Positions 4,992 through 44,934 of a stretch of 64,000 bases of DNA are shown here, piece after piece (the first letter of the stretch is position 1; each line of letters starts with the position of its first letter). The notes beneath the pieces are model-generated. The model was not told the origin of the DNA, did not search any database, and saw only the letters and a list, made by a program, of their open reading frames with translations. The DNA is from Roseburia sp. (lineage in GTDB: Bacteria > Bacillota > Clostridia > Lachnospirales > Lachnospiraceae): the NCBI GenBank assembly GCA_026168605.1, contig JAPFDX010000003.1, positions 1 through 64,000 of the forward strand. Reading direction: 5' to 3'. Both the position numbers and the translations under genes were made by a program.

Positions 4992-5804
4992 TTACTGAAG
5001 TAAGGATAATACACCCTGGTTAGAGGTATTAGCCTGAGCCAGCATAGACTGTCCTGCCTGAGCAAGGATGTTGTTCTTGCTGTACTCAACCATCTCAGCC
5101 GCCATATCTGTATCACGCAGACGGGACTCAGCAGCCTGTGTATTCTCAGCTACGTTGTCAAGGTTGTCGATGGTATGCTCTAATCTGTTCTGTAATGCAC
5201 CGAGCTTAGAACGCTGAGAAGATACCTTCTCAATAGCACTCTGAACTTTCGTCATAGCCTGACCAGCTGAATCGAACGAAGAAACATCAAGACTCGTGAT
5301 TCCAAGAGAAGAAGCGCTCATGTTGCTGATGCTGATAACGATGTTCTGTCCCTCAAGCGCACCAATCTGCAGATTCTTTCCAGTGAAGTTACCATCCAGC
5401 AGGTTGTTTGTGTTGAACTGGGTTGTAGACTGGATTCTGTCAATCTCAGATGTCAGTGCATCAATCTCATCCTGGATAGCCTGTCTGTCTACAGATGTAT
5501 TGGTGTCGTTTGCAGCCTGTGTTGCAAGCTCGTTCATACGCTGTAAGATAGAGTGAGCCTCATTTAATGCACCCTCAGCAACCTGGATTGCAGATACACC
5601 ATCTTGTGCATTTGCAGATGCTCTGTTAAGACCACGAATCTGGCTTCTCATCTTCTCAGAAATGGAAAGACCTGCTGCATCATCTGCTGCGCGGTTGATT
5701 CTGTATCCGGAAGATAACTTCTCAGAAGACTTTGCCTGACGGTTTGTTGTGATACCTAACATTCTGTTAGAGTTCATTGCTGTAAGATTGTGCTGTACTA
5801 CCAT
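4992..5804 (-). CDS. hag: Flagellin (filament protein)
   Basis: A 270-residue flagellin. The N-terminal D0/D1 region (MVVQHNLTAMNSNRMLG, then LSSGYRINRAADDAAGLSIS near residues 30-50) and the C-terminal D1/D0 region (AESRLRDTDMAAEMVEYSKN, then QSMLAQANTSNQGVLSLLQ) are complete. The central variable domain is very short, as in Bacillus Hag-type flagellins. It is exported by the flagellar type III apparatus and polymerises outside the cell. It has its own sigma-D-like promoter, a leader of about 120 nt with CsrA-type hairpins, an AAGGAGG ribosome site and a terminator, so it is monocistronic. Glycosyltransferase genes lie on the far side of the terminator. Confidence 0.98.
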   Translation of the reverse strand: MVVQHNLTAMNSNRMLGITTNRQAKSSEKLSSGYRINRAADDAAGLSISEKMRSQIRGLNRASANAQDGVSAIQVAEGALNEAHSILQRMNELATQAANDTNTSVDRQAIQDEIDALTSEIDRIQSTTQFNTNNLLDGNFTGKNLQIGALEGQNIVISISNMSASSLGITSLDVSSFDSAGQAMTKVQSAIEKVSSQRSKLGALQNRLEHTIDNLDNVAENTQAAESRLRDTDMAAEMVEYSKNNILAQAGQSMLAQANTSNQGVLSLLQ

Positions 5805-39769: not shown

Positions 39770-40915
39770 TCATTTCTTTCTATTCTTCTTTTTGTCCTCG
39801 TACATTCTCGCGTCCGCCAGTTCTAACATCTGACGGATGCTCTGATCCGCCGCCTCCTCTGCTTTCACACAGCCAATGCTGACCACAATATTCCATGTGC
39901 CACGCTCTCCCCAGTTCATCCCGGCGATGCCCCTGCGCAGCGCTTCGATATATGCCGCGACCTCATCGTCGTTCTTTCCCTTCAAAATCACGACAAATTC
40001 ATCGCCGCCATACCGTGCCAGAAACGAACTTGTCCTGCCAAAGGTCTTTTTTAACTGGTCCGCCACAAGGCGCAGGACGTGGTCTCCTGTCATGTGACCG
40101 AACCTGTCATTGATTTTCTTGAACTGATCCACATCCATCAACAGCAGATGATAGGAGTCTCCTCTCCAGTTCTGTTCTTCCATCTCCAAAAGATACTGGT
40201 CCAGTCTCCCTCTGTTATTCAGCCCCGTCAGCGCGTCGCGGATCACCTGACGCTGCTGTACGTCCAGATAGACCATCAGCACGGACGCTGCCGTAAAAGG
40301 CCCGGCAAACTCCACTGCCGGATACAGCATCTGAAGCAGTCCGCCGCAGACCGGAAGAATGGCAAATCCCGCAGCCGTCTTACATTCGAGACGCCGCTCC
40401 ACCTGTTCCTCCTTCTTCGCACAGCGCAGCGCGTGCACAGACGACGCCACGACATAGCCAAAGGTTACGACGACATAGACCATGTAGCCGTCTCCCCGCA
40501 CATAAAAATTCTGCTCGTCCAGCGAGAAGATGATCCCCGTCCACGGCGTCGTGAGAAGCAGCGCCGCAAAAATAAAAAACGGTATGCCAAGTTTTAACGC
40601 CCCTGTGCCCCGCTGTCCGATCCCGTTCTCCGCCACATCCCTAGTATACAGATACCAGATATATGCCATAAATGCTAGCAGCCCCAGACAAAACCCATTA
40701 GAGAGCCACAGAAAAACGCGCGTCCCCGGCATCTGTCCCCCATCGAAATATCTGCCTGTGATATTCGTAAAGAACACTCCGACCAGGAGCACCATCATAA
40801 AGCGCAGCGCACGGCTGCGCCATGAATAAGTGAGTGTATATTTTACATTCGCACGCATAATAAGCAGCGCCAACATCGGAATTAAATTGATCTGCAAATA
40901 AGTAACCGTATCCAC
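39770..40915 (-). CDS. Membrane-bound diguanylate cyclase (GGDEF)
   Basis: A 381-residue protein with a GTG start at 40915 (AAAGGGGG upstream). About six to seven N-terminal transmembrane segments are followed from about residue 215 by a GGDEF domain. The active site is RYGGDEF (G303-F307). The inhibitory I-site RxxD is absent (RTSS). It should make cyclic di-GMP from GTP. It is paralogous to the next gene upstream, from which it is separated by 13 bp. Confidence 0.93.
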   Translation of the reverse strand: MDTVTYLQINLIPMLALLIMRANVKYTLTYSWRSRALRFMMVLLVGVFFTNITGRYFDGGQMPGTRVFLWLSNGFCLGLLAFMAYIWYLYTRDVAENGIGQRGTGALKLGIPFFIFAALLLTTPWTGIIFSLDEQNFYVRGDGYMVYVVVTFGYVVASSVHALRCAKKEEQVERRLECKTAAGFAILPVCGGLLQMLYPAVEFAGPFTAASVLMVYLDVQQRQVIRDALTGLNNRGRLDQYLLEMEEQNWRGDSYHLLLMDVDQFKKINDRFGHMTGDHVLRLVADQLKKTFGRTSSFLARYGGDEFVVILKGKNDDEVAAYIEALRRGIAGMNWGERGTWNIVVSIGCVKAEEAADQSIRQMLELADARMYEDKKKNRKK

Positions 40916-40928
40916 CGTGCCGCCCCCT

Positions 40929-42086
40929 TTATCCTATGTGCTGTCCTGCCGCCCGTTTTTTTGCCGTCTTTGCGGCGTACATCCGCTCGTCCGCCAGCGC
41001 CACGAGACGATCCGGCTCCCCCGTCTCCTCCCAGAGCGCATAGCCAATGCTAAACGACAGTCTGTATTTCTTTTCTGCGGTGCGGTTAAAGCGGTCAACC
41101 TCCTGCTCCACCAGACGGAGCGCCTGCTTTGCCTCCGCCTCGTCCTTCCATGCCCCGATCACCGCAAATTCATCGCCGCCATACCGCGCCAGAAAGGTCC
41201 GCTCTCTGCCGAGGACACGCCTTAAAATATCCGCCGTCTCCCACAGCGCCTCATCGCCCACAACGTGCCCCAGATTGTCGTTGATTCCCTTGAAATCATC
41301 GACGTCCAGCATGAACATTCCCCAGTTGCCTGCGTTCTGCTTCGCCCACTTTAAAATCTGCTTGTCAAACTCCCTGCGGTTGTTCAGTCCCGTCAGCCCA
41401 TCCGTGGTAATCTGGCGGTTCTGCGTATTCAGATAGATAAAAAGAAGTGTCAGTGACAGACACGAGGATCCGCCCCACCACACATCGAAGCAATACTGGA
41501 TAAGCATCCCCGCAAGAAGCAGAAATCCGCATCCCGACAGATAAAGACACTCCCACTTCCGCTCTCTGGAATTTTCCTTCCTGCCCTTTCGTATACTTAT
41601 CACTGCGCCGGCAAGGATCAACAGCGTACATTCCAGATAGAGCAGCCCGTACAGCCCTCCGTGCCGGCAGATATTGTCCTCCGTGACAAAAAGCAGCAGA
41701 TGCGTCCACGGCGTCGTGACGATCAGAAGCGTCATCAGAAGCTGGAGCACACCCAGAAAGCGCAGCGTCCTGCTCTCCTCCCCTGCCGCTCCCCATACCT
41801 GCAGCCGAAAACAGATATAGAGAAGCCATAGCGCCGCAATTCCCGTCATCATCGACGCATAGACCATATACGAAATCCACAGCCCTGCCTTCACGGCAGC
41901 GCCCGGCACACCCAAAAGTCCCTTCCCCGCCGTTCCTGACACCATCGCCCCGATGGCAAGAAGAGTCAGAACATCAAACAGAAGCTTATCTGCCGTCCCT
42001 GCTGTCTTTCTGTGATTGTTTGCATATATTATGAGGAGCATAAGTATCGGAAATAAATTGATACTTATGGATACCAGCATATTCAT
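40929..42086 (-). CDS. Membrane-bound diguanylate cyclase (GGDEF), paralogue
   Basis: I take the start as ATG 42086 after GGGGGAG. It has 385 residues in the same architecture as the neighbour: a multi-helix N-terminal membrane domain and a GGDEF domain (RYGGDEF, residues 303-307). The I-site is RxxT (GRERTFL) and so probably inactive. The pair seems to come from duplication, and the sequences have diverged throughout the membrane part, implying different input signals. Confidence 0.93.
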   Translation of the reverse strand: MNMLVSISINLFPILMLLIIYANNHRKTAGTADKLLFDVLTLLAIGAMVSGTAGKGLLGVPGAAVKAGLWISYMVYASMMTGIAALWLLYICFRLQVWGAAGEESRTLRFLGVLQLLMTLLIVTTPWTHLLLFVTEDNICRHGGLYGLLYLECTLLILAGAVISIRKGRKENSRERKWECLYLSGCGFLLLAGMLIQYCFDVWWGGSSCLSLTLLFIYLNTQNRQITTDGLTGLNNRREFDKQILKWAKQNAGNWGMFMLDVDDFKGINDNLGHVVGDEALWETADILRRVLGRERTFLARYGGDEFAVIGAWKDEAEAKQALRLVEQEVDRFNRTAEKKYRLSFSIGYALWEETGEPDRLVALADERMYAAKTAKKRAAGQHIG

Positions 42087-42187
42087 ACCCACTCCCCCTT
42101 GACAAGGATATTTCTATCATTATAACATTTCCACATATTCTTGTCAGTAATTCTGTGCAAATTTAGTGTCTTTTCCACAAATTTTTC

Positions 42188-44182
42188 TTATTGATACGTT
42201 CTGCGAAACTGTATCGGCGTCATCTCACAGGTTTTTTTAAACAGCCGGTTAAAGTGTTCCACATTCTCATATCCCACATAGGCAGCAATGGATTCCACCG
42301 TCTGGTTCGTCTCTTTTAGCATCGCGCACGCCTTTTTCATCCGCGCTTTCTTCACCGCATCCTGAAATGTCATGCCGGATTTCTCCCTGATATATTTCGA
42401 GAGATACGGTCCCGAGAGATGGAACTCCTCTGCGAGCACATCCAGCGTAACGTCCGCATAATGGCTCTGAATGTAATTCATGATGGCGACAAGCCGCTCC
42501 TCGCGCCCCTCTGTGATACATTCGCTCTTAGCCATCTTATTGGCAGCGGATACCAGCGCCGCAACGGAGCTGGAGATAATATCCTCATCGATGCCGACGC
42601 CCCAGTAGCTTCTGTCACCGACAACGATCTTCACGTAGGCTGCCGCTTTCGAGGAAGACCCCGCAGAAATCGCGTGCTCCTCATACGCCGCCAGTTCATA
42701 CTCAATACCAAAATACATCTTGACCGCATTGCTGACCGCATCCAGACGCCCGTTTCCGGTGGTCTCGATCATCCGACGCTCCCCGTCCTGCTCGATCGTC
42801 ACCTGCGCCGTGATGCCGTTCTTCCGCTCAAAATGATACTCCGGCACCTCAAACACATCTGTGCGGTTGATATACGTCTCCTCAAAAATCCGATAGATCG
42901 CCTCCGGAGACAGCTCCTTATGACGGTGGTCGGAAACCCCTTTGATCAGGTAGCCAACCTCCTCCTTCATCCGGTCTGGCAGTGACATACCGAAATTCTG
43001 TTTCAGGATATAAGCCACGCCGCCCTTTCCGGACTGGCTGTTGATGCGGATGACATCCGACTCGTATTCACGCCCGACATCCTTCGGGTCGATCGGAAGA
43101 TACGGCACATCCCACCGCTCCCCGCTCTTGCCTTCCGATCTCCACGCCATACCCTTGGAGATCGCATCCTGATGTGACCCGGAAAAAGCTGTAAACACCA
43201 GATCCCCGGCATACGGCGTGCGCTCGTACACGCGCATACCGGTAAAGCGCTCATACTTCTCCCGGATCGCGGAAATATTGGAAAAATCAAGTCCCGGATC
43301 CACACCATGGCACACCATGTTCATCGCAACCGTCACAATATCCACATTGCCCGTGCGCTCACCGTTGCCAAAAAGCGTGCCCTCCACACGGTCCGCACCC
43401 GCAAGGATCCCAAATTCCGCGTCGCTGATGCCACAGCCCCTGTCATTGTGCGGATGCACACTTAAGATCACATTGTCGCGGTACTTTAAGTGCTTGTGGA
43501 TATACTCGATCTGGCAGGCAAATACGTGCGGCATCGCGATCTGCACCGTCGTCGGGATGTTGATGATCGCCTTGTGCTCCCCGTCCGGCTGCCACACATC
43601 CAGAACCGCATTGCAGACCTCGACGGCATAGTCCACCTCTGTGCCCGGGAAGCTCTCCGGACTATACTCAAATGTAAAATTGCCGTCCGTCTCCTGTGCC
43701 AGTGTCTTTAACAGTTTCGCCCCGTCCACGGCAAGCTGCTTTACTTCCTCTCTGCTCTTGCGGAATACCTGCTCGCGCTGCGCCACGGACGTGGAATTGT
43801 ACAGATGGATCACCGCGTGGGGCGCGCCCTCTACCGCCTCAAAAGTCTTGCGGATAATATGCTCCCTCGCCTGGGTCAGCACCTGCACGGTGACGTCCTC
43901 CGGTATCATGTCGCGCTCGATCAGTGCGCGCATAAAATTGTATTCGGTCTCCGACGCCGCCGGAAATCCCACTTCAATCTCCTTAAATCCGATATCTACC
44001 AGCATCCTGAAAAATTCCAGCTTCTCCTCAAGTCCCATCGGCTCGATCAGCGCCTGATTGCCGTCGCGCAGATCCACGCTGCACCAGACCGGCGGCTTCG
44101 CGATCACATCCTTCTTCACCCAGTCGTATGTCACCTCCGGCGGCATAAAGTATGATTTTCCATATTTTGCTGCTATGTCCAT
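42188..44182 (-). CDS. leuA: 2-isopropylmalate synthase fused to a C-terminal AraC DNA-binding domain
   Basis: The start is ATG 44182 after GGAGGGG, giving 664 residues. Residues 1-400 are the HMGL-like TIM barrel (CSVDLRDGNQALIEPMG; HPHNDRG with the metal-binding HxH; GNGERTGN). Residues 430-545 form the LeuA dimer/leucine-binding domain (TGNGRLDAVSNAVKMYFGIE; AAYVKIVVGDRSYWGVGIDE). Residues 563-664 are a complete AraC pair of helix-turn-helices (LDVLAEEFHLSGPYLSKYIR; VGYENVEHFNRLFKKTCEMT). The frame is open, so this is a true fusion. The reaction is acetyl-CoA plus 2-oxoisovalerate to 2-isopropylmalate. Confidence 0.95.
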   Translation of the reverse strand: MDIAAKYGKSYFMPPEVTYDWVKKDVIAKPPVWCSVDLRDGNQALIEPMGLEEKLEFFRMLVDIGFKEIEVGFPAASETEYNFMRALIERDMIPEDVTVQVLTQAREHIIRKTFEAVEGAPHAVIHLYNSTSVAQREQVFRKSREEVKQLAVDGAKLLKTLAQETDGNFTFEYSPESFPGTEVDYAVEVCNAVLDVWQPDGEHKAIINIPTTVQIAMPHVFACQIEYIHKHLKYRDNVILSVHPHNDRGCGISDAEFGILAGADRVEGTLFGNGERTGNVDIVTVAMNMVCHGVDPGLDFSNISAIREKYERFTGMRVYERTPYAGDLVFTAFSGSHQDAISKGMAWRSEGKSGERWDVPYLPIDPKDVGREYESDVIRINSQSGKGGVAYILKQNFGMSLPDRMKEEVGYLIKGVSDHRHKELSPEAIYRIFEETYINRTDVFEVPEYHFERKNGITAQVTIEQDGERRMIETTGNGRLDAVSNAVKMYFGIEYELAAYEEHAISAGSSSKAAAYVKIVVGDRSYWGVGIDEDIISSSVAALVSAANKMAKSECITEGREERLVAIMNYIQSHYADVTLDVLAEEFHLSGPYLSKYIREKSGMTFQDAVKKARMKKACAMLKETNQTVESIAAYVGYENVEHFNRLFKKTCEMTPIQFRRTYQ

Positions 44183-44289
44183 ATTCCCCTCCAAAATCAT
44201 TCAAGAAAATTGATTTTATTTATCTTTTCCCCTATCCTATCATACGTTTCTCCGGCAAACAAGGTGCGCTTTTAATCAAAATACTTGAT

Positions 44290-44934
44290 TTATTTTAACT
44301 TCACTCCAACCTTTTTGCAGACCTCCGACAGACAGCATCTGTCGCAGTGCGGCGTTGTGCGTGCAGTGCAGATCTCTCTGCCGTGATCGACCAGACGATG
44401 GCAGAAATCATTGCCCTCCTCCGGCGGGATCAGCTTCCAAAGCTCCATCTCCACTTTTTTCGGCTCCTTGATCCCATCCACCAGCCCCATGCGGTTGACA
44501 AGACGGATACAGTGCGTATCCGTGACGATCGCCGGTTTTCCAAAGACGTCCCCCATCACCAGATTTGCACTTTTTCTGCCCACTCCCGGCAGTGAGAGCA
44601 GCGCGTCAAAATCATCCGGCACCTTCCCGCCGTACTCGTCGCGCAGTATCTTCATGCAGGCGCTGATGTCCCGCGCCTTGCTGTTCCCCAGTCCGCACGG
44701 GCGCACAATCTCCTCAATCTCCGATACCTCCGCCTCCGCCAGCGCCTCCACGGTCGGAAATTTCGCATACAGATCCTGTACCACGACATTGACTCTGGCG
44801 TCCGTACACTGCGCGGCAAGACGCACACTTACGAGCAGCTTCCACGCATCGTCGTAGTCCAGGGTACAAGTCGTATCCGGGTACTCCTCCTTCAGCAGTC
44901 TGATAATCTCTTTTGCACGTTCTTTTTTTCTCAT
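44290..44934 (-). CDS. nth: Endonuclease III (DNA glycosylase/AP lyase)
   Basis: A 214-residue Nth. It has the helix-hairpin-helix LLSLPGVGRKSANLVMGDVF with the catalytic Lys, the catalytic Asp in IVTDTHCIR, and the C-terminal 4Fe-4S ligands (C-x7-C-x2-C-x5-C in CTARTTPHCDRCCLSEVC). The first spacing is one residue longer than in E. coli. It removes oxidised pyrimidines from DNA. Confidence 0.96.
   Translation of the reverse strand: MRKKERAKEIIRLLKEEYPDTTCTLDYDDAWKLLVSVRLAAQCTDARVNVVVQDLYAKFPTVEALAEAEVSEIEEIVRPCGLGNSKARDISACMKILRDEYGGKVPDDFDALLSLPGVGRKSANLVMGDVFGKPAIVTDTHCIRLVNRMGLVDGIKEPKKVEMELWKLIPPEEGNDFCHRLVDHGREICTARTTPHCDRCCLSEVCKKVGVKLK

Follow-up and report, generated by a model that had tools for sequence, protein, structure and literature searches.

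It is an old proposal that the first enzyme of a biosynthetic pathway, which is inhibited by the end product, also regulates transcription of the genes of its pathway (autogenous regulation). Metabolic enzymes with a regulatory role are described in several systems. PutA of Escherichia coli bound only its own control region in a screen and is a single-target regulator, and BirA and NadR are named as trigger enzymes with multiple targets (PMC8249747). Ada methyltransferase is an enzyme that activates its own operon (PMC3788762). Here we describe a gene from Roseburia sp. in which leuA is joined to a DNA-binding domain of the AraC type. The gene lies in a 64,000-nucleotide stretch of one contig, which is hereafter called the window.

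ORF analysis of the window gave one uninterrupted ORF (42188-44200, minus strand). A ribosome-binding sequence, GGAGGGG, is present at 44186-44192, ahead of the ATG at 44182, and initiation at this ATG gives 664 amino acids. Therefore, the first-pass annotation, which had reported at 42188 to 44182 a complete LeuA that continues in frame into both helix-turn-helices of an AraC-type DNA-binding domain, was right in its coordinates, and the ORF, Pfam and NCBIfam results bear out its description. In the Pfam search, every match exceeded the curated cut-off. In 670-aa numbering, these matches were HMGL-like (38-313, E = 4.9e-70), IPMS_D2 (333-400, E = 2.7e-34), LeuA_dimer (429-556, E = 3.5e-27) and a full-length HTH_18 (589-667, E = 3.8e-21). 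The protein scored 800 bits with the NCBIfam subfamily model for 2-isopropylmalate synthase (cut-off 455) and 672.5 with the yeast-type equivalog TIGR00970, slightly below the cut-off of 697.4. Among solved structures, Mycobacterium tuberculosis LeuA was the nearest by sequence (E = 4e-153). The last 100 residues matched AraC-type domains including 6swi, 3lsg and 2k9s. An AlphaFold model (mean pLDDT 76.5, pTM 0.51; residues 321-387 mostly below pLDDT 50) served for the secondary structure of the HTH domain alone. In this model, a short linker stands behind the last LeuA helix (535-553) and is followed by the seven helices of the AraC domain (562-573, 580-587, 591-602, 606-624, 629-636, 641-652 and 656-663; pLDDT 76-90). 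By its domain order and intact motifs, the protein is a predicted 2-isopropylmalate synthase. Its sequence places an enzyme and a putative DNA-binding domain in one polypeptide, as in trigger enzymes. The features are collected in Table 1.

Table 1 Features of the leuA-araC locus in the window. Residues are numbered from the ATG at 44182.
Feature	Position	Strand	Remarks
leuA-araC fusion gene	42188..44182	-	664 aa + stop; ORF and domain assignments
Catalytic HMGL-like barrel	43262..44089	-	Residues 32-307; LRDGNQ, HPHNDRG, FGNGERTGN; Pfam; aligned to M. tuberculosis LeuA 1sr9
IPMS_D2 post-catalytic domain	43001..43204	-	Residues 327-394; Pfam
LeuA_dimer allosteric domain, presumed leucine sensor	42533..42916	-	Residues 423-550; Pfam
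AraC-type DNA-binding domain, seven helices	42194..42499	-	Residues 562-663; HTH_18, AlphaFold model
Candidate operator O1, TTAAAATAAATCAAGTATTTTGATTAAAAGCGC	44266..44298	-	Inverted-repeat core 44275-44289; motif conserved upstream of fusion genes
-35 element TTGTTT	44257..44262	-	12 nt after O1 core; consensus fit
-10 element TAGGAT	44234..44239	-	Spacer 17; consensus fit
Putative second site O2, ATCAATTTTCTTGAA	44200..44214	-	One mismatch to core; 75 bp downstream of O1, beyond promoter

Relatives of the window's genome were searched for the fusion. A full-length fusion was found in at least 89 of 397 genomes of the same family (Lachnospiraceae), the window's own included; these were counted by hand as matches that reach query residue 660 or beyond. 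Some match to the fusion query was present in 395 of the 397 genomes. Among the matches listed, the other full-length fusions were 64-79% identical to the window's protein. Of 391 genomes sampled across the class, at least 13 had a fusion-sized frame, which is a lower bound because at most 11 candidates were scored per genome: ten of the 13 belong to the window's family (the window's genome among them) and the remaining three to two further families. In GTDB species genomes, 515 stretches encode a relative of the C-terminal query, and the best 80 of these 515 include Roseburia, Acetatifactor, Eisenbergiella and Lachnoclostridium. In a LeuA tree, a Roseburia locus is the partner of the window's protein. 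The assembly that contains the window consists of 50 contigs, and the first-pass annotation had raised the idea that a sequencing or assembly error joined two genes. The same fusion in at least 89 of the 397 genomes, with single-contig ones among them (G035, G191, G282, G296 and G323), excludes this explanation, to which we assign practically no chance.

In two loci (L141 and L152, from genomes G061 and G078), the AraC domain stands in another frame directly behind the LeuA stop codon; in L152 it follows a run of eight A. These off-frame domains may reflect a sequencing error, a split gene or frameshift expression.

We compared 104 fusion proteins. The motifs LRDGNQ and FGNGERTGN were invariant, as was HPHNDRG save P244 (98%); from their role in M. 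tuberculosis LeuA, we take these three to be the active-site motifs. In the LeuA_dimer domain, GNGRL (476-480) was invariant and EEHAISAG (501-508) was looser (A504 81%, I505 59%, A507 3%). Pooled over 31 close pairs, one of them counted twice (same gene from two collections), pN/pS was lowest in the barrel (0.043) and the HTH domain (0.045), followed by LeuA_dimer (0.067) and the linker (0.094). By this measure, the DNA-binding part is under constraint equal to that on the catalytic barrel. The C-terminal domain could be imagined as a passive passenger or a stability module, given that many relatives have leuA without the HTH (37 + 19 examined). However, the pN/pS of the HTH domain is as low as that of the catalytic barrel, the modelled seven-helix fold is complete, and the operator described below is linked to the presence of the HTH. 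We consider a passenger very improbable.

A profile search of the window's genome gave three PF00682 matches. The two proteins other than the fusion were rejected as isopropylmalate synthases: judged by sequence and by neighbours read by eye, one looks aldolase-like (polysaccharide locus) and the other looks like a carboxylase subunit. Thus, the fusion is apparently the only isopropylmalate synthase found in this genome. The remark that no leuBCD genes lie nearby was correct, as leuB, leuC and leuD do not adjoin the fusion gene. A leuB-ilvD-ilvB cluster is on contig C14 (leuB by homology search, ilv names by eye), and ilvC and leuC-leuD are on contig C44 (leuC by homology search, the rest by eye). 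Therefore, the leucine pathway is present and its genes are scattered. A LysR-type gene, also assigned by eye, is divergent from leuC-leuD on contig C44 (L119:9141-10200) and is likely a separate regulator of this operon. Three further observations were made. A palindrome, ATCAA-N8-TTGAT, which has the half-sites of the candidate operator at another spacing, is present upstream of ilvN-like and ilvC genes (L119:1329-1349). Two TwoAYGGAY RNA matches lie about 1.3 kb apart (L120:4000-4166 and 5458-5625). Directly downstream of the fusion gene, the window encodes two neighbouring, similar membrane proteins with GGDEF-like ends by eye (39770-40915 and 40929-42092).

Upstream of the fusion gene, a new candidate operator, TTAAAATAAATCAA-N5-TTGATTAAAA, abuts the -35 element. 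Fusion genes are recurrently preceded by an inverted repeat, ATCAA-N5-TTGAT, whose flanks are A/T-rich. The sets used for counting were as follows. From 110 fusion loci, L046, L051 and L088 (without the LeuA signature) and L075 and L095 (without the HTH test string) were removed to give 105; removal of L029, L086 and L113 (less than 250 nt upstream) gave 102, of which 98 have at least 600 nt. One of the 40 controls, L139, is a fusion truncated at a contig end and was added to the fusion set (103), and L141 and L152 were moved from the controls to a split class, so that 37 HTH-less controls remained. Seven row pairs are the same gene from two collections, and therefore the 103 fusion genes are not all distinct; because fusion genes are related, the counts given below overstate independence.

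The core with at most one mismatch was present within 900 nt upstream in 77 of 102 fusion loci. The exact core with a spacing of 5 was found at 49 of 98 fusion genes versus 0 of 40 controls, and at each of the other spacings from 0 to 12 at no more than one of the 98. One-mismatch matches also peaked at spacings 1 (35/98) and 9 (42/98). These were rejected as distinct sites, since on the consensus they are the same operator in a shifted register.

For scoring, we used a 33-column matrix made from fusion-gene sites and a threshold of 9 or more, which was chosen after the first control set was known (top true HTH-less score 7.9). O1 scored 33.1, the best in the window, O1 itself being among the sites from which the matrix was built. 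The exact half-site TTAAAATAAATCAA occurs once in the window's genome, at leuA. Scores of 9 or more were obtained for 91 of 103 fusion genes versus 0 of 37 HTH-less leuA genes, and for both loci in which the HTH is split into another frame (L141 and L152). Fisher's test for 93/105 versus 0/37 gave 5e-24, a value that is uncorrected for relatedness and is not readable as independent evidence. Most of the 103 fusion genes fed the matrix, and therefore the main weight falls on the hold-outs. These were scored without any change of matrix or threshold: of 40 divergent fusion genes, none of which has a 95%-identical match of at least 600 nt among the training loci, 37 reached 9 or more, versus 0 of 19 HTH-less genes. 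Among these hold-outs, the same-genus genome G292 has a weak operator (9.6). All three fusions from other families (two families) have the operator, with scores of 20.2, 19.9 and 30.6. When a core with one mismatch or a half-site with two mismatches was accepted, 96 of the 98 fusion genes matched, as did 8 of the 37 genes without the HTH; shuffled sequence gave 8-14/98 and 4-7/37, respectively, so that the real HTH-less value is slightly higher than the shuffled one. Twelve of the 103 fusion genes scored below 9, and ten of these belong to one 24-row sub-clade (L008, L011, L013, L082-L085, L091-L094 and L098-L118 in part). In this sub-clade the second half-site is degenerate and the HTH is conserved, and many members retain TTAAAATAAATCAA.

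With all branches counted, the larger tree has 7 changes in the presence of the HTH, and the two trees give 4 and 7 pairs. Supported branches give 2 independent pairs; on average, the operator changes in the same direction as the HTH in 1.9 of these 2 and in the opposite direction in 0. Because there are only 2 such pairs, this phylogenetically independent test is unable to reach significance. Four HTH-less loci (L138, L140, L143 and L145), nested among fusions in the best tree with modest branch support, are without the operator. As judged from these promoter sequences, the candidate operator co-occurs with the HTH domain of LeuA.

These data also bear on another explanation, in which a separate regulator of leucine or nutrient response binds O1 and the fused AraC domain acts elsewhere, for example at other promoters. 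The inverted-repeat core does resemble the sites of many dimeric repressors, and relatedness lets any two clade-specific traits co-occur. However, the site follows the HTH: it is at 0 of 56 HTH-less leuA promoters, is kept in both split-HTH loci and in other families, and is missing in the four nested HTH-less loci. Moreover, an operator-like site is present at 0 of 27 leuC and only 1 of 30 leuB promoters. We regard a separate regulator as improbable, and the fusion itself very probably binds O1.

Variation in the protein may point in the same direction. Among fusion proteins whose site scores 9 or more, 70 have E and 20 have Q at residue 639, just ahead of helix 6, which is presumably the recognition helix of HTH2. 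Of the 70 sites that go with E639, 58 have T at operator position 11 and the remaining 12 have a degenerate second half, whereas T is found at this position in none of the 20 that go with Q639. Because this E/Q-to-base covariation is mostly one clade split, a pairing of residue 639 with position 11 is suggestive only.

The promoter of the fusion gene was assigned by consensus fit and compared with those of other fusion genes. Of 76 fusion promoters, 53 have a distance of 11-12 nt between the core and the -35 element, and 61 have a spacer of 17 between -35 and -10. In 45 of 76, the -35 element agrees with TTGACA in only 2-3 positions. A site that abuts a weak -35 element is the layout of AraC-type activators. 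Thus, the candidate operator is near the -35 element, as in AraC/XylS regulators. O2 scored 13.1 and 17.9 on its two strands. Of 75 loci, 26 have a relaxed second site, at +63 in one and at +73 to +77 in the other 25; in the hold-outs, it was found in 12 of 40 (nine at 72-75, the others at 34, 57 and 63). O2 is absent from most loci and occurs about 74 bp downstream in some clades, Roseburia-like ones included. The offset of about seven turns between O1 and O2, across the promoter, suggests a loop.

T-box leaders were also surveyed.ᅠRfam found no T-box in the 64-kb window. By regular expression, T-box-like sequences were present at 26 of 98 fusion genes versus 26 of 37 HTH-less genes, and were thus commoner without the HTH. 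Of the loci scanned with Rfam, 2 of 8 with the fusion and 7 of 12 without the HTH gave a match above threshold; the two methods disagreed at L005 and L138 (regular expression only) and at L151 (Rfam only). In 25 of 27 fusion loci having a T-box-like sequence by regular expression, the operator is upstream of it (-395 to -617). Because the T-box stands between promoter and gene in these loci, the operator keeps its place relative to the promoter rather than to the start codon. Regulation seems to have shifted from a T-box RNA leader, or to have been stacked upon it.

Other possible targets were sought in the genomes with a fusion. Among 30 such genomes scanned, leuC was found in 27 and leuB in 30. 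The operator was at none of the 27 leuC promoters and at one leuB promoter, that of G341 (L260), where a perfect copy is at -137. Core matches at leuC of L215 (-49, one mismatch) and L230 (-557, exact) and at leuB of L241 (-572, exact; -598, one mismatch) were rejected as chance matches by their position and flanks. With 2 mismatches allowed, the median number of matches to the 21-base operator pattern was 6 for 24 genomes with a fusion versus 7 for 12 comparison genomes, which were taken as HTH-less from match scores (hand count). In the window's genome, no other fetched candidate exceeded 8.5, versus 33.1 at leuA. The core pattern with one mismatch occurs at 185 places in this genome versus 17 for the reversed pattern, a difference to which we gave no weight, since ATC-AA/TTGAT corresponds to frequently used codons. 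Regulators of the AraC family can have several target genes, and together with the perfect site at leuB of G341 this would fit a fusion that governs a large regulon with leuA as one target among several. However, the nearly equal medians, the scarcity of the operator at leuC and leuB promoters and the uniqueness of the exact half-site in the window's genome argue against it. A regulon beyond leuA was rejected after the leuC and leuB promoters and 36 genomes had been scanned, and we consider it unlikely. In its regulatory role, the fusion probably has leuA as its main or only target.

The first-pass annotation had suggested a trigger enzyme in which enzyme state or leucine level controls transcription. 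The idea of a trigger enzyme is strengthened by a concrete candidate target, the operator in front of the gene, whose presence goes with that of the HTH; leucine or the catalytic state may alter DNA binding. We think it likely that the fusion is a self-regulating trigger enzyme, that is, a transcription factor dedicated to the gene that encodes it. The LeuA dimer would set its AraC-type DNA-binding domains on O1, beside the -35 element of PleuA. In Roseburia-like and some other clades, it would also occupy O2, about 74 bp downstream. The signal would be leucine bound at the LeuA_dimer domain, which is directly N-terminal to the DNA-binding domain; leucine in this role is reasonably likely. One site would then serve for both feedback inhibition of catalysis and transcription control. 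For the sign of regulation, activation at low leucine is slightly favoured; activation from O1 at low leucine, with O1-O2 repression where O2 exists, may be right or wrong with equal chance. More tentatively, and with somewhat greater doubt than belief, the whole may be pictured as a feedback-inhibited amino-acid enzyme that turned into its own transcription factor and replaced the T-box, with one leucine site for both tasks and, in clades with O2, the LeuA dimer as a switch of the AraC kind between activation from O1 and a repression loop of about seven turns between O1 and O2.

The autogenous design is apparently built into one polypeptide, is common in gut Lachnospiraceae and has a defined candidate operator. 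RNA-based (T-box) and protein-based control would replace each other or be stacked at one gene, and the LeuA-AraC protein would be a candidate leucine-sensor module for engineering. In the open-access literature, partly judged by title and the start of the abstract and with most subscription papers outside its scope, we found no paper on a LeuA-AraC fusion.

Comparison with known systems places the fusion as follows. M. tuberculosis LeuA (1sr9 and 3fig) has the same enzyme part (E = 4e-153) but no HTH; its 644-residue chain ends where the AraC domain of the fusion starts. AraC of E. coli shares the two-HTH domain (2k9s matches), and it has a site next to the -35 element and a distant second site that can loop. 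The O1/O2 layout of the fusion resembles this arrangement, although O1 differs by its inverted-repeat core. The sensor of AraC is a sugar-binding cupin, whereas that of the fusion would be an enzyme. The HTH of Ada is of the AraC type; Ada is switched by self-methylation in DNA repair and not by an end-product amino acid. BirA and NadR belong to biotin and NAD metabolism, unlike the leucine-pathway fusion, and their HTHs are of different types and are placed N-terminally. PutA and, as far as its sequence tells, the fusion are both metabolic enzymes tied to their own control regions. However, PutA is catabolic, switches to the membrane and represses putA and putP, whereas the fusion is biosynthetic and combines an allosteric domain with an AraC-type domain; the DNA-binding domain of PutA is a ribbon-helix-helix. 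By analogy, PutA, BirA and NadR appear to be the closest in kind to the fusion, and Ada appears to be the closest enzyme with an AraC-type domain.
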